Source of the DNA: an uncultured Pseudomonadota bacterium
GTDB taxonomy: Bacteria; Pseudomonadota; Gammaproteobacteria; Burkholderiales; Usitatibacteraceae
Assembly (NCBI GenBank): GCA_946885905.1
Contig: CAMPHL010000011.1
Location: 1 to 16,034 of the forward strand
Direction: 5' to 3'
DNA: 16,034 nt
This document shows positions 9,181 through 14,440 of this stretch, one piece after another (position 1 is the first letter of the stretch; each line of letters begins with the position of its first letter). Below the pieces are notes generated by a model that saw only the letters and a program-made list of their open reading frames with translations, was not told the DNA's origin and searched no databases. The position numbers and the translations under genes were made by a program.

Positions 9181-11103
9181 ATGACGCCCGCCGAATTGCG
9201 ATCGGAAACCACGCCCGACAGCCTGGCGCTGGACGCCGCGCGGCGCGCGCTGGAGGACATGAGCCGCCGTGCGCGGATGCTCATCGATACGGCCAACGAC
9301 GCCGTCGTCACGATCGATGCGGCAAGCATCATCATCGACTGGAACCGCACCGCCGAGCGCATGTTCGGCTGGCCGCGCGAGGAAGCCGTCGGGCGCGTGA
9401 TCACCGACCTCATCGTGCCGCCGCAGCATCGCGAGGCGCACCACCGCGGGATGTCACGCTTCCTAGCCAGCCGGGAGCCCGGAATCCTCAACCGCCGCGT
9501 CGAGATCACGGCGCTCGATCGCCTGGGGCGCGAATTCGACATCGAGCTGTCGGTCTGGCCGGTCGAAACGGGGACGACCTACACCTTCAGCGCCTTCATC
9601 CGCGACATCTCCGAGCGCCGGCGCGCCGAGGCGGCGTTGCGCGCGAGCGAGGAGAAGTACCGCCTCGTGGTGGAGAACGCCTACGAAGGCATCGTGGTGA
9701 GCCAGGACGGGATGCTCAAGTACGCCAACCCGCGCGCGCTCGCCCTCACCGACCGCACCCTCGAGCAGGCGATGACCACGCCCTTCATCGAGATGGTCCA
9801 CCCCGAGGACCGGGCGCGCGTCTACGGCAACTACGTGAGGCGCCTGCGCGGCGAAGAGGTCGAGCCCACGTACGTGTTCCGCGCCCTTTCGGCCAGGGGC
9901 ACGGTGCGCTCGCTGCAGATCAACGCCGTGACGATCGAATGGGAAGGCAGGCCCGCGACGCTCAACTTCCTCACCGACGTGACCAGGCAGGTCGCGCTGC
10001 AGGACCATCTCGCCCAGACCCTCTCGGAGCGCGAGGCCATCCTCGAGACGACGGCGGTCGGCATCATGTTCATCCAGGCCGGCCGCATCAAGTGGGCCAA
10101 CGACGCGCTCGAGCAGTCGATGCTCGGCTGGAGCGACGGCGAGATCATCGGCAAGACGGGCGAGGTCGCCTTCGCCGACCACGCCGACTGGTCGCGCTTC
10201 CTGAAGGAGTGCATCCCCGAGCTCGAGTCGACCGGCACCTATTCCGGCGACTGGCACGTGCGCCGCAAGGACGGCTCGGGCTGGTGGTGCCACATGTCGG
10301 CCAAGGCCCTGAACCCCGCGGACCTGGGCGCCGGCACGATGTGGTTCTTCCTCGATGTCTCGGGACGCAAGCGTGCCGAGGAGGAGGTGCGGCGCGCGCT
10401 CTCGCGCGAGCGCGAGCTTTCGGAGCTGAAGACCCGATTCATGTCGATGACCTCGCATGAATTCAAGACGCCGCTCGCGGCGATCCTCTCCTCGGTCGAG
10501 CTGCTGGAGGACTTCGGCGACCTGCCCGAGGCCGAGCGCCGCGAGCTGATCCGCATCGTGAAGGCCTCGATCGCGAAGATGACCGGGATGATCGACCAGG
10601 TCATGCTGATCGGCCGGGCGGAGTCCGACCGCCTCGAGTTCCGGCCCGCCCCCGCCGACCCGGCGGCGCTCGCCATGCAGATCGCCCGCGAAACGCAGCA
10701 CGCGCTGGAGAACCGGTGTCCCGTGCAGGTGCGCGTAAAGGGCGTCCCGGGCGAATGCATGCTGGATGCGAAACTGCTTTCGCACGTGCTCGGCAACCTC
10801 CTCACGAACGCGATCAAGTACTCGAACGCGGGAACGCCCGTGGAGCTGGAGCTCGAATCGCGTCCCGGGTCGCTCACTTTCCTCGTGATCGACCGTGGCA
10901 TCGGCATCCCGCCCGAGGACCAGCCGCGCCTGTTCGAAAGCTTCCACCGCGCGCGCAACGTGGGCAACGTCGAGGGCACCGGCCTCGGGCTCACGATCGT
11001 GCGGCAATGCGTCCTGCTGCATCGCGGCACGGTCGACTTCGAGAGCGTGCCCGGGAAGGGCTCGGTGTTCATCGTGTGCATTCCCGTGGAGCCGGTGCCG
11101 TGA
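9181..11103 (+). CDS. Soluble PAS-PAS-PAS sensor histidine kinase
   Basis: 640 residues with no signal peptide or membrane helix, so a cytoplasmic sensor. Three PAS domains are seen at about 33-150 (ending R-D-I-S-E-R-R-R-A-E), 156-270 (ending L-T-D-V-T-R-Q) and 285-400 (ending L-D-V-S-G-R-K-R-A-E). HisKA follows with phospho-acceptor His426 in S-H-E-F-K-T-P-L. The HATPase domain has N-L-L-T-N-A-I-K-Y, D-R-G-I-G-I-P (Asp571) and G-T-G-L-G-L (599-604). All catalytic boxes are intact. The gene overlaps the response-regulator gene by GTGA, so the two form a pair. PAS ligand or cofactor (haem, flavin or other) cannot be read; the target globin suggests a redox, oxygen or NO cue, which is inference. 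Confidence 0.95.
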   Translation: MTPAELRSETTPDSLALDAARRALEDMSRRARMLIDTANDAVVTIDAASIIIDWNRTAERMFGWPREEAVGRVITDLIVPPQHREAHHRGMSRFLASREPGILNRRVEITALDRLGREFDIELSVWPVETGTTYTFSAFIRDISERRRAEAALRASEEKYRLVVENAYEGIVVSQDGMLKYANPRALALTDRTLEQAMTTPFIEMVHPEDRARVYGNYVRRLRGEEVEPTYVFRALSARGTVRSLQINAVTIEWEGRPATLNFLTDVTRQVALQDHLAQTLSEREAILETTAVGIMFIQAGRIKWANDALEQSMLGWSDGEIIGKTGEVAFADHADWSRFLKECIPELESTGTYSGDWHVRRKDGSGWWCHMSAKALNPADLGAGTMWFFLDVSGRKRAEEEVRRALSRERELSELKTRFMSMTSHEFKTPLAAILSSVELLEDFGDLPEAERRELIRIVKASIAKMTGMIDQVMLIGRAESDRLEFRPAPADPAALAMQIARETQHALENRCPVQVRVKGVPGECMLDAKLLSHVLGNLLTNAIKYSNAGTPVELELESRPGSLTFLVIDRGIGIPPEDQPRLFESFHRARNVGNVEGTGLGLTIVRQCVLLHRGTVDFESVPGKGSVFIVCIPVEPVP

Positions 11104-12446
11104 CGGCCATCCCCGCGCCGCGCCGCATCCTGGTGGTCGACGACGACGCGGCGCTGCTTCGCCTGCTGTCGCTGCGCCTGCAGAAGGAGGGTTTCGCGGT
11201 CACGGAAGCCGCGAGCGGCGAGGCGGCGCTGGCGAGGCTCGCCACCCTGGTTCCGGATCTGGTGATCACCGACATGCGCATGGGCGGGATGGATGGGCTC
11301 GCGCTCTTCCAGGCGGTGAACCGCAAGCACCCGGCGCTCCCCGTCATCATCCTCACGGCCCACGGCAACATCCCCGATGCCGTCACGGCGACGCGCAAGG
11401 GCGTATTCAGCTACCTCACCAAGCCCTTCGAGGCGCGCTCGCTGATGATCGAAGTGGAGCGCGCGCTGGCGCTCGCGGGGCCCGCGGCGGGGCAGGCCGA
11501 GGACGATTGGCGCCTGGGCATCGTGACGCGCAGCCCGGTGCTGGAACGCGTGCTCGCCGAGGCGCGCATGGTCGCGGCGAACGATGCCGCCGTGCTCATC
11601 GGGGGCGAAAGCGGGACCGGCAAGGAGCTTCTCGCCCGCGCGATCCACGAGGCGAGCCCGCGTCGCGACGCTCCCTTCGTGGCGGTGAACTGCGGCGCGA
11701 TCCCCGAGGCGCTGCTCGAAAGCGAGCTCTTCGGCCACGTGAAGGGCGCGTTCACCGGCGCGCTTCGCGACCACAAGGGCCTCTTCCAGGCCGCGCAAGC
11801 CGGCACGCTCTTCCTGGACGAAATCGGCGACATGGCCTTGCCGCTGCAAGTGAAGCTGTTGCGCGTGCTGCAGGAGCGCGAGATCCGGCCGGTGGGTTCG
11901 GCGCAGTCGATCAAGATAGACGTGCGCGTGATCTCGGCCACGCACCGGGACCTGCGAGCCGAGACCGCGGCCGGCCGCTTCCGCGAAGACCTCTATTACC
12001 GGCTGAACGTGGTCGGGCTGGCGCTGCCGTCGCTCGCGGCGCGGCGCGAGGACATCGCGCTGCTCGCGAACCACTTCCTCGCCATGCTCGCCGCGCGCTA
12101 CGGCAAGGGCACGGCGTCGTTCGCACCCGAGGCGATGCAGCGCCTCGTGGGCGGCGCCTGGAAGGGCAACGTACGCGAGCTGCAGAACGTGGTGGAGAAA
12201 TGCGTGGCGCTTTGTCCCACGTCCGTGATCCCGGCCTCGCTCGTCGACCGCGCCATGGAGGGCCCGACCGACGACATGGCCTCCTTCGACGAGGCGCGCC
12301 GCGCGTTCGAGCTCGAATACCTCACCCAGTTGCTGCGCATGACCAGCGGCAACGTCACCCAGGCTGCGCGCATGGCCAAGCGCAACCGCAGCGACTTCTA
12401 TTCGCTCCTCGGCCGCCACCAGCTCGATCCCGCCTCCTTCAAGTAG
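11100..12446 (+). CDS. NtrC-family sigma-54-dependent response regulator
   Basis: 448 residues from a GTG that overlaps the kinase stop. Receiver domain 9-120: acidic pocket D14-D15-D16, phospho-acceptor Asp58 (V-I-T-D-M-R-M), I-L-T-A-H-G, and Lys108 in Y-L-T-K-P-F. AAA+ domain about 143-370: Walker A G-E-S-G-T-G-K (169-175), the sigma-54 contact loop GAFTGA at 216-221, and Walker B L-F-L-D-E (Asp240). A Fis-type helix-turn-helix occupies the last ~45 residues (G-N-V-T-Q-A-A-R-M-A-K-R-N-R-S-D-F-Y). The architecture resembles GlrR/QseF-type activators. The intact GAFTGA predicts genuine activation of sigma-54 promoters, and the first such promoter begins 154 bases beyond the stop codon. Confidence 0.96.
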   Translation: MTAIPAPRRILVVDDDAALLRLLSLRLQKEGFAVTEAASGEAALARLATLVPDLVITDMRMGGMDGLALFQAVNRKHPALPVIILTAHGNIPDAVTATRKGVFSYLTKPFEARSLMIEVERALALAGPAAGQAEDDWRLGIVTRSPVLERVLAEARMVAANDAAVLIGGESGTGKELLARAIHEASPRRDAPFVAVNCGAIPEALLESELFGHVKGAFTGALRDHKGLFQAAQAGTLFLDEIGDMALPLQVKLLRVLQEREIRPVGSAQSIKIDVRVISATHRDLRAETAAGRFREDLYYRLNVVGLALPSLAARREDIALLANHFLAMLAARYGKGTASFAPEAMQRLVGGAWKGNVRELQNVVEKCVALCPTSVIPASLVDRAMEGPTDDMASFDEARRAFELEYLTQLLRMTSGNVTQAARMAKRNRSDFYSLLGRHQLDPASFK

Positions 12447-12448
12447 CT

Positions 12449-12464
12449 GTTGGCATTTGCGGAC
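12449..12464. promoter_or_regulatory. Putative upstream activating site 1 (imperfect dyad)
   Basis: GTTGGCATTTGCGGAC begins two bases after the regulator's stop codon. It matches the perfect dyad at 12517 in 12 of 16 positions and keeps the same arm spacing. Its centre lies about 169 bases before the predicted sigma-54 start site, within the usual enhancer range for NtrC-type activators. Confidence 0.45.
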
Positions 12465-12516
12465 ACCCTCGAAGGCCTTGCGCGTCAGGCACTTGCGATC
12501 GCCTGCGTGCGGGGGC

Positions 12517-12532
12517 GTTGGCGTTCGCCAAC
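12517..12532. promoter_or_regulatory. Putative upstream activating site 2 (perfect dyad)
   Basis: GTTGGCG-TT-CGCCAAC is a perfect 7-base inverted repeat. It extends outward as GGG/CCC after one mismatched pair. The centre is about 101 bases upstream of the predicted sigma-54 start. Fis-type HTH regulators bind dyads of this size, so it is the best candidate binding site for the adjacent regulator. It could alternatively be a hairpin in RNA, but it lacks a T tract. Confidence 0.55.
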
Positions 12533-12599
12533 ACCCGCGGCCGCGGTGGCCTCCACCGCTTTCCGGCTAAGCCTTTGATCGTCCTCAAGTAACGCCCAT

Positions 12600-12615
12600 T
12601 GGCACGGCCGTTGCG
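12600..12615 (+). promoter_or_regulatory. Sigma-54 (-24/-12) promoter
   Basis: TGGCACG-GCCG-TTGCG matches the sigma-54 consensus TGGCACG-rNNN-TTGCW at every fixed position except the final W. The GG and GC are 12 bases apart, as required. The predicted start is near 12626, leaving a 26-base leader with an AGGGAG ribosome site before ATG 12652. The adjacent gene encodes a sigma-54 activator with two candidate sites upstream, which strengthens the call. Confidence 0.85.
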
Positions 12616-12651
12616 ATGTACAGCGCGTCCATAAGCCAGGGAGCCGTTCAG

Positions 12652-12846
12652 ATGAGCACACAGAACCCACAGGAAGCCTTCTTCAACTGGCTCGGCCAGG
12701 CGCTCGCCCGTGCATTCGACGCGGTGCGCGGTCCCGACAGCGACGTGCATTACCTGACGGGCGCCACGGACCACGCCGACCTCGAGCGGCGGCTGCGCGT
12801 GCTGCAACGCGGCGCCGGCACAGCCCTCTCGCAACTCACGTACTGA
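12652..12846 (+). CDS. DUF3563 family small protein
   Basis: 64 residues. The ATG at 12652 is preceded by CAGGGAG at good spacing. The in-frame ATG at 12616 overlaps the edge of the sigma-54 -12 element and precedes the predicted transcription start, so it is excluded. The C-terminal half, Y-L-T-G-A-T-D-H-A-D-L-E-R-R-L-R-V-L, is the DUF3563 signature found in short betaproteobacterial proteins. There is no signal peptide; an aromatic, mildly amphipathic N terminus (F-F-N-W-L-G-Q-A-L-A-R-A-F) precedes a charged helix. Function is unknown for the family. It is the first gene after the sigma-54 promoter and 29 bases before the globin, so probably co-transcribed with it. Confidence 0.85.
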   Translation: MSTQNPQEAFFNWLGQALARAFDAVRGPDSDVHYLTGATDHADLERRLRVLQRGAGTALSQLTY

Positions 12847-12875
12847 TCGACAACGACAACCAAGGAACGACGACC

Positions 12876-13304
12876 ATGACGCCGCAGCAGATCGCCCTCG
12901 TGCAGGACAGCTTCCGCAAGGTGATGCCCATCGCCGATACCGCCGCCGCGATGTTCTACGCGCGCCTCTTCGAGCTCGACCCCTCCCTGCGCCAGCTTTT
13001 CAAGGGCGAGCTGCGCAAGCAGGGGATGATGCTCATGAGCATGATCGGGAGCGCCGTGCGTGGCCTCACCGACCCGAACGCGCTGGTGCCGGTCCTGCAT
13101 GCGCTCGGCCGGCGCCACGCCGGCTACGGCGTCGAGGACGCGCATTACACGACGGTAGCCGCGGCGCTGCTCTGGACGCTCGAGCAGGGGCTGGGCGACG
13201 CGTTCACGCCCGAGACGCGCGAGGCATGGATCTGCGCCTACTCGCTGATGTCCTCGGTGATGCAGCAGGGCGGCCACGAGATGCCGGTGCTGGCCGCGGC
13301 GTAA
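12876..13304 (+). CDS. Bacterial globin family protein
   Basis: 142 residues forming a single globin domain with no flavin reductase domain attached. Visible landmarks are Q-D-S-F-R-K-V at the A helix, F-Y-A-R-L-F-E-L-D-P-S-L-R-Q-L-F with the CD1-type Phe42, and L-G-R-R-H-A-G-Y-G-V carrying the proximal His81 expected to bind haem. Length fits single-domain haemoglobins or so-called hemin-receptor globins. Such proteins bind O2 or NO and may take part in NO detoxification or sensing; which applies here is not readable. AAGGA nine bases upstream supports the start. The gene lies behind the DUF3563 gene under the sigma-54 promoter, giving it a regulated role. Confidence 0.93.
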   Translation: MTPQQIALVQDSFRKVMPIADTAAAMFYARLFELDPSLRQLFKGELRKQGMMLMSMIGSAVRGLTDPNALVPVLHALGRRHAGYGVEDAHYTTVAAALLWTLEQGLGDAFTPETREAWICAYSLMSSVMQQGGHEMPVLAAA

Positions 13305-13354
13305 TTTGTAAACGCGCGGGCGGGTGCCGTCAGGCGTCCGCCTACGTGCCCATG

Positions 13355-13374
13355 CGGCGCGCAACACCGCGCCG
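13355..13374. other. GC-rich hairpin in the globin-thioredoxin gap
   Basis: CGGCGCG-CAACAC-CGCGCCG is a perfect 7-base stem with a 6-base loop in the 120-base gap. There is no T tract, so it is not a classical intrinsic terminator; it may slow polymerase or protect the globin mRNA 3' end. Nothing else beyond a ribosome site is recognised in this gap. Confidence 0.4.
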
Positions 13375-13424
13375 AGGCTGAACTTCGATTCGGGAGCTGC
13401 ATCGTACGGGGAGGAATCCCGGCG

Positions 13425-14270
13425 ATGATCGATACCAGCCTGCCCACGTTCGAGCGCGACGTCATCGAAGCTTCCCAGGAAGTCCCGGTGCTGCTCGACT
13501 TCTGGGCTCCCTGGTGCGAGCCCTGCCACGAGATGGGGCCGGTGCTCGAGCGCCTCGAGCGCGAGTACGGCGGCCGCTTCCAGCTCGTGAAGGCCAACGC
13601 CGACGACAACGCGGAGCTGCTCGCCTCCTTCGGGCTCGAATCGCTCCCGCACGTGGTCGCCTTCGTGGGCGGCAACGCGGTGGCGCAGTTCGCCGGGGCC
13701 CAGCCCGAATTCTTCCTGCGCGCCTTCGTCGAGCGCCTGATCCCCGACCCGGCCGGACTCGAGCACCGCTGCGCGCGCAACGCGCTCACCCTGGGGCAGG
13801 AAGCCATCGCCGAAAGCCATTTGCGAACCGCGCTCGCGCTCGATCCGTCGAGCGACGCGGCACGCCTGGACTTCGTCGGGCTGCTGCTCAATCGAGGCGA
13901 CGTGGTTGGCGCGCGGGCCCACTTCGGACTCCTCTCTTCCAACGCACAGGCGTGCGCGGCCTATGGCACCACGCGCGAGCGGCTCGAGACTGCCGAGCTC
14001 GCGGCGCTGCTGCCCCCGCCCGAGCACCTCGAGCGACGCATCGAATTCGACGGGAACGACCTGCAGGCGCGCTCGGAGCTCGCCGAGCTGATGATCGCCC
14101 AGGGCGACTTCGAGCCGGCGATGGAGCAGTTGCTTGAAATCGCGCGGCGCGACCGCAGCTTCAGGGAAGACGTCGGGCGGCGCAGGCTGCTCGAGGTCTT
14201 CGAGCTCGCCGCTGCCTATCCCGAGCTGGTTTCGGAATACCGCGCGCGGCTCTCGGCGGTGATCTTCTGA
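13425..14270 (+). CDS. Thioredoxin-TPR protein, CnoX/YbbN-like
   Basis: 281 residues. A thioredoxin domain at about 1-110 has the active site W-C-E-P-C (Trp30 to Cys34) and cis-Pro75 (S-L-P-H-V). It is followed by a helical TPR-like region with repeats around L-G-Q-E-A-I-A-E-S-H-L-R-T-A-L-A-L-D-P and S-E-L-A-E-L-M-I-A-Q-G-D-F-E-P-A-M-E-Q-L. This is the CnoX (YbbN) architecture: a redox-linked holdase that hands clients to GroEL/DnaK. Both active-site cysteines are present, unlike E. coli YbbN (SxxC). The central residue is Glu rather than Gly. GGGGAGGA nine bases upstream fixes the ATG. No signal peptide, so cytoplasmic. Confidence 0.93.
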   Translation: MIDTSLPTFERDVIEASQEVPVLLDFWAPWCEPCHEMGPVLERLEREYGGRFQLVKANADDNAELLASFGLESLPHVVAFVGGNAVAQFAGAQPEFFLRAFVERLIPDPAGLEHRCARNALTLGQEAIAESHLRTALALDPSSDAARLDFVGLLLNRGDVVGARAHFGLLSSNAQACAAYGTTRERLETAELAALLPPPEHLERRIEFDGNDLQARSELAELMIAQGDFEPAMEQLLEIARRDRSFREDVGRRRLLEVFELAAAYPELVSEYRARLSAVIF

Positions 14271-14315: not shown

Positions 14316-14371
14316 GCCTTTAACTCCTTTGGGGGCGTGGAGGGCAGGCCGGCGCCCGGGGTCGGAAAAAT

Positions 14372-14384
14372 GGTGTCAGACACC
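14372..14384. repeat. Palindromic repeat copy 3
   Basis: GGTGTCAGACACC, with A-rich left flank (GGAAAAAT). It is the first of the second pair in the window; the next copy is centred 40 bp away. Between them a weak CTGG...CCAG stem occupies the same place as the hairpin in the first pair. Confidence 0.75.
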
Positions 14385-14411
14385 CTGGCTGCCCATCCAG
14401 TCTGGAAAAAT

Positions 14412-14424
14412 GGTGTCTGACACC
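14412..14424. repeat. Palindromic repeat copy 4
   Basis: GGTGTCTGACACC inside a longer, nearly perfect inverted repeat reaching from about 14404 to 14431 (GGAAAAAT left, ATTTTCC right). A run of six C and the TTG start of mnmC follow within 17 bases of the core. Confidence 0.78.
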
Positions 14425-14440
14425 ATTTTCCGTACCCCCC

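Follow-up and report, generated by a model that had tools for sequence, protein, structure and literature searches.

Organisation of the locus

The window, by which we mean the whole stretch of 16,034 nt analysed here, contains on its forward strand a gene for a histidine kinase of 640 amino acids (9181-11103), in which Pfam identifies three PAS stretches, a HisKA and a HATPase domain and whose start codon was assigned by reading the frame. The end of this gene (11103) overlaps the start of the next one (11100-12446, forward strand), which encodes a QseF/GlrR-like sigma-54 response regulator with receiver, AAA+ and helix-turn-helix parts, as judged from Pfam, NCBIfam and motifs in the translation. 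The regulator gene ends 153 bp before a predicted sigma-54 promoter of the -24/-12 type (TGGCACGGCCGTTGCG, 12600-12615, forward strand), and the intervening region harbours two enhancer-like palindromes and an IHF-like site. Behind the promoter, an ORF for a DUF3563-like small protein of 64 aa (12652-12846) and, after a gap of 29 bp, one for a single-domain globin of 142 aa (12876-13304) are located on the same strand, and a thioredoxin/TPR gene starts at 13425, after the globin. The original prediction, according to which small protein and globin are driven by a sigma-54 promoter, left out the regulator, the PAS histidine kinase, the palindromes and the IHF-like site. Further downstream, at 14358-14438, the window carries two copies of GGAAAAATGGTGTC[AT]GACACC, which are 40 bp apart, as well as a 27-nt inverted repeat (89% complementary) ahead of the next gene.

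A rare exact match to the -24/-12 core

Positions 12600-12614 of the forward strand (TGGCACGGCCGTTGC) agree with all 11 fixed bases of TGGCACG-N4-TTGC (11/11), and the GG and the GC within this core are 10 bp apart. The exact core is present as a single copy when both strands of the window are considered, and it appeared in only 5 of 200 dinucleotide shuffles (mean 0.03), so that the claim of a correctly spaced -24/-12 element was borne out. The longer sigma-54 consensus has an A or T directly after TTGC; against it the promoter scores 11/12, with a G at 12615 instead, and the base following TTGC is variable in relatives too. Since matches with up to two mismatches were not above expectation in the window (5 observed vs 7.3 expected), only the exact match is meaningful. 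If the C of TTGC is set at -12, the predicted transcription start is 12626, which results in a predicted leader of 26 nt with an AGGGAG (12638-12643) preceding the ATG at 12652; a start near 12626 and a short leader with a ribosome site had also been given in the original prediction. A pattern scan of 12440-13440 detected neither a sigma-70 promoter nor a terminator pattern.

Paired enhancer-like sites and an IHF-like site

The distal enhancer-like site (TGTTGGCATTTGCGGACA, 12448-12465, forward strand) is an exact TGT-N12-ACA centred at about -169, and the proximal one (CGTTGGCGTTCGCCAACA, 12516-12533, forward strand) has one mismatch to this pattern and is centred at about -101. Both are direct repeats of each other, 68 bp apart, between the regulator gene and the promoter. 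Counted over the window only, palindromes differing at one position from TGTY-N10-RACA were not above chance (9 vs 7.3 expected), and the case for an enhancer therefore rests on the pairing of the sites, their position and their recurrence in relatives. The IHF-like site is located on the reverse strand at 12568-12580 (GATCAAAGGCTTA) and differs at one position from WATCAANNNNTTR, the IHF consensus used for comparison; such sites are enriched at this place in relatives (see below). According to the available excerpts of the respective papers, QseF of E. coli binds TGTN12ACA, aided by IHF (PMC6075780), and its site is also written as TGTCN10GACA (PMC8745638).

A QseF/GlrR-like regulator and a PAS kinase

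Pfam assigns a receiver and a sigma-54 AAA+ domain to the regulator, and a GAFTGA motif and a helix region (RNRSDFY) were read in its translation. Its best NCBIfam match is GlrR with 614 bits, which is below the cut-off of 763. Two other identities were rejected: the PEP-CTERM regulator PrsR (359 bits vs a cut-off of 503) and NorR, which is ruled out by the site pattern.

The kinase is not of the QseE/GlrK kind according to NCBIfam. The closest PDB match of its first PAS is FixL (73 bits), in whose PAS domain a His binds haem and an Arg gates O2. In the first PAS of the window kinase, a His stands opposite the FixL His in the alignment, and a Val occupies the position of the FixL Arg. As read from the translations, this His is kept in the kinase of G102, the only relative in which the same gene order was detected, and a FixL-like PAS was not seen in the kinase of genome G035.

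The layout recurs downstream of related regulators

We searched 399 genomes with the regulator, all from the order of the betaproteobacterial metagenome-assembled genome G001, which we took to be Burkholderiales, and obtained a match at an E-value of 1e-100 or better in 161 of them. The families of G102, G035 and G001 are represented by 5, 1 and 4 genomes, respectively. For the comparison we used the best-scoring 90 regulator matches, which are related to one another and hence not independent. A -24/-12 element (at least 10/12, GG and GC kept) was present up to 500 bp downstream of 70 of these 90 regulators, compared to a mean of 2.44 (maximum 8) in fifty dinucleotide shuffles of the regions. 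An element together with an exact TGT-N12-ACA upstream of it was found in 47 regions (shuffle mean 0.08, maximum 1), and at least two sites with up to one mismatch each preceded the promoter in 52 (shuffle mean 0.22, maximum 2). The corresponding numbers for promoter, exact site and at least two sites were 2, 0 and 0 on the reverse strand and 4, 0 and 1 in a control stretch at 700-1216 bp. No such promoter was found in the remaining 20 regions, a few of which are on short contigs.

When sites were defined more strictly and the window was included, 64 of 91 regions had a promoter and a site and 47 had at least two sites, which were spaced 64-68 bp apart in 38 of these 47 loci. In 39 of the 64 regions, the stretch from site to promoter contained an IHF-like site with up to one mismatch (letter shuffles 5.9, maximum 13), and in 10 of the 64 a perfect one (letter shuffles 0.27, maximum 2). 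Conservation in a relative with the same synteny, on which the promoter claim had been made to depend, could be confirmed in G102, where TGGCACAGGCGTTGCT is accompanied by two enhancer sites that are nearly identical. Taken together, the adjoining regulator gene, the paired enhancer-like sites, the IHF-like site and the recurring layout strongly support the prediction that transcription from this promoter proceeds via sigma-54, and we regard it as very probable that the promoter is genuine and activated by the neighbouring regulator.

A matched change of recognition helix and half-site

Seven regulators, including that of the window, share the helix motif RNRS[DE]FY (S-type) and form one clade with a support of 100/99 in a tree of 88 sequences (L103, L114 and L131 of the 91 were left out), in which the S-type members are well separated (end branches of 0.67 for L052 and 0.52 for the window). 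The half-site GTTGG, a pattern picked after inspection of the data, is located downstream of 7/7 S-type regulators vs 1 of the 84 other regions (L130); in the regions without an S-type regulator, GTCGC, GTCGG and GTCTCC are frequent. Because the S-type regulators represent one clade and thus one origin, the data show a single joint change of helix and site. Both helix types are present in genomes G035, G088, G123 and G346.

We also searched G102, G035, G088 and G162 for S-type sites, which matched many places with one mismatch, and opened 26 loci. A promoter (at least 9/12) followed the site in 6 of the 26, and in five of these the region adjoins the regulator of G102, G035 or G162. The remaining S-type palindrome (L231, G088:C45:72065-72082) is located away from the regulator, and a -24/-12 element (11/12) lies 75 bp further on, ahead of an ORF that resembles an exported protein; L231 is possibly a second target.

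Genes behind the promoter vary among relatives

The genes behind the promoter differ among relatives and include envelope-type proteins, glycine-zipper-like and BON/EF-hand-like proteins (names assigned by reading, with homology support), small proteins, candidate small RNAs and globins. In seven loci (L086, L094, L095, L107, L115 and L125 in genomes G368, G342, G393, G313, G254 and G027, and L263 in G157), a conserved GAGTGCGCCTTGYGGGGCAG was observed just after the sigma-54 promoter, with a hairpin and a T-run behind it. The 20-mer occurs once each in 7 of the 399 genomes, 234-304 bp after a GlrR-like regulator, with six of the seven loci having supplied the pattern. Rfam gave no match in six of the candidate loci. 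The candidate looks like a glmY-like sigma-54 small RNA outside the Enterobacteria. An Rfam match was likewise absent from the window and from 13 related loci, and glmY was thus not seen beside the locus of the window.

The small protein of the window matches DUF3563 (PF12086) with 22.5 bits, which is below the gathering cut-off of 26.9. A homologue search returned 29 matches, of which 28 were close, located on metagenome contigs, and the last one distant, and all 28 homologues match DUF3563 at an E-value of 0.01 (best 6e-07). The DUF3563 label is thus only partly supported for the window protein, and we refer to it as DUF3563-like. Further searches yielded 8 distant loci in viral contigs and 12 in genome contigs and no close relative. 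The predicted fold comprises three helices (mean pLDDT 79), and a Foldseek search with it gave 7 matches at E-values up to 10 and none at 0.001 or better. The DUF3563 protein of G102, which is 37% identical to the small protein of the window across 57 columns, passes the Pfam cut-off (27.9 vs 26.9 bits). DUF3563-like proteins are also encoded on contigs of a viral collection (L001-L008, IMG/VR), as read at 5010-5200 of L002, where the protein has YLGQATDHADLERRL. A scan upstream of DUF3563-like genes across genomes, as had been suggested earlier, rules out sigma-54 control as a general trait of this family: among 36 such loci (8 from viral contigs; L032 with almost no upstream DNA), the promoter together with sites was found only in G102, and L028 has a lone promoter-like match. 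The family name DUF3563 was absent from the literature searched.

The globin label could be confirmed, since PF00042 is matched with 59.3 bits (gathering cut-off 22). The protein resembles the solved bacterial single-domain globins 3wfw, 3s1i and 3ubc in the PDB, and its H81, Y28 and Q49 align with identical residues in all three; we take H81 to be the proximal His and Y28 and Q49 to be the distal Tyr and Gln. A flavohaemoglobin is ruled out, because Pfam matches the globin domain only and the protein is without a FAD/NAD reductase domain.

Globins behind the promoter were detected by phmmer in 3 of 91 regions, i.e. in the window, in G102 and, more weakly, in G035. G102 shows the order promoter, DUF3563 protein, another small ORF that has no Pfam match, and globin, the latter being 57% identical to that of the window; two other globin-bearing genomes of its 5-genome family are without the promoter. 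The globin-like protein of G035 (L133, 7817-8239), which follows the same kind of promoter, is 32% identical to the window globin. It has no aligned proximal His, distal Tyr and Gln and no Pfam hit at an E-value of 0.001, and may be a globin fold that does not bind haem normally. Due to this loss of the haem residues it counts little here. A small protein of the DUF3563 type together with a globin is thus found behind the promoter in two lineages only, so that the suggested link between both stands as a functional clue, but not as an established partnership.

Nor is this globin family generally linked to sigma-54: the family matches 36 places in 35 of the 399 genomes, and among the 30 places opened, the promoter with paired sites was seen only in G102. 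L145 and L150 have promoter-like matches of 10 or 11/12 without well-placed sites, and in L154, L156 and L163 a 10/12 match is located 838 bp upstream, with loose one-mismatch sites at other spacings. FNR-like sites were also considered before the other globins and rejected, with only scattered two-mismatch matches found.

Discussion

Sequence and comparison establish the predicted promoter, the paired sites, the IHF-like site, the recurring spacing and the match between helix and half-site. Our preferred explanation, which we consider highly probable, is that the neighbouring kinase-regulator pair drives the sigma-54 promoter for the small protein and the globin via the palindromes and IHF. 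The kinase would phosphorylate the adjoining QseF/GlrR-like regulator, which would bind the palindromes at 12448-12465 and 12516-12533, while IHF would bend the DNA between these and the promoter. The ATPase of the regulator would then open the sigma-54 RNA polymerase at 12600-12615, and a transcript beginning near 12626 would carry the small protein and the globin together. The central claim of the original prediction, a sigma-54 promoter for these two genes, is thus supported by the regulator, the sites, the IHF-like site and the relatives.

The genes downstream vary widely and globins are rare (3/91 regions, one of them degenerate), as one would expect if the small protein or the leader were the main product and the globin came mostly from another promoter or from weak read-through. 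We regard this as rather improbable, since the gap between the ORFs is only 29 bp, no terminator or sigma-70 pattern was seen, and a globin follows the DUF3563 gene in G102 too. The neighbouring regulator, the binding of which is predicted, could be incidental and another sigma-54 activator of the cell could drive the promoter; yet the sites, their spacing and the helix/half-site match track this regulator family, and in the 26 loci opened, the S-type sites with a well-placed promoter in G102, G035 and G162 adjoin the regulator, which makes a different activator unlikely. Least credible is a chance resemblance without a sigma-54 promoter: weak consensus matches are common in GC-rich DNA (the 5 vs 7.3 expected with up to two mismatches), but the exact match is rare, its distance from the paired sites recurs, and the element is present in 70/90 relatives.

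An addition to our preferred explanation, rather than an alternative to it, is that the kinase senses O2 or NO by a haem-binding FixL-like PAS and that the operon is a gas response. The FixL match of the first PAS, its aligned His, the retention of this His in G102 and a globin as output point in this direction, but a Val replaces the FixL Arg, no such PAS was seen in the G035 kinase, and such a His also occurs in PAS domains without haem. We therefore regard the addition as tentative; O2 or NO as the signal would be a guess, as would O2 scavenging or NO removal as the role of the globin. Equally speculative is the following evolutionary reading: a branch of the QseF/GlrR type would have been duplicated, its helix changing from RNRT to RNRS and its sites from GTCGC to GTTGG, and in some lineages its target would have shifted from envelope genes or small RNAs to an operon for a gas-binding globin. 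O2 or NO would then be sensed by a soluble kinase with a FixL-like PAS, and the DUF3563-like protein would serve the same response.

Among the closest known systems is QseE/QseF (GlrK/GlrR)-glmY of the Enterobacteria, which shares with the locus the regulator architecture and TGT-N12-ACA sites upstream of a sigma-54 promoter. As described for it (PMC6075780, PMC8745638), IHF assists there, corresponding to the IHF-like site here, and the target is near the regulator gene. Unlike in QseE/QseF, the GlrR score is under the cut-off, the kinase is a PAS kinase, the half-sites read GTTGG, and a small protein plus globin downstream of the regulator make up the target. NorR/FhpR controls the flavohaemoglobin genes hmp/fhp and is similar in that a sigma-54 activator is located beside a target with a globin domain, which removes NO in that case (PMC1274295). 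NorR sites are GT-N7-AC, however, and the present system has a receiver domain, a kinase and a globin without reductase domain. To our knowledge, NorR is not a two-component regulator. NmpR/NmpS/NmpT/NmpU of Myxococcus xanthus governs an oxygen-use regulon including a hemerythrin and reportedly likewise employs an NtrC-like regulator and two sites before a sigma-54 promoter, together with a haem-dependent kinase (PMC11841059). It differs from the locus by a phosphorelay of several proteins, a protoglobin sensor and GCGCA-N5-TGCGC sites. With FixL/FixJ the locus has in common the PAS kinase, the first PAS of which is closest to FixL in the PDB, and it differs by the Val in place of the FixL Arg; we know of no evidence that FixJ is a sigma-54 activator.

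With NorR/FhpR and NmpR as precedents, the control of gas-binding proteins by sigma-54 is in itself no novelty, and QseF-like activators are listed as a class in a 2011 survey (PMC3162934). The literature searched on GlrR, on globin with sigma-54 and on betaproteobacterial QseF, seen in part and with subscription papers mostly outside its scope, held no description of this system. Compared with the QseF/GlrR kind, what is new here is the target operon together with the specificity of the sites.

The QseF/GlrR type of enhancer is known from Enterobacteria, and these results indicate that it is also common in the betaproteobacterial order studied here, where its layout represents a regulator-linked cassette in which the genes behind the promoter change. 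One set of loci apparently carries a sigma-54 small RNA that has not been described, and the DUF3563-like protein is given a testable regulatory setting. Paralogues of the same genome that differ in helix and, correspondingly, in half-site provide a clean case for how such systems stay apart.
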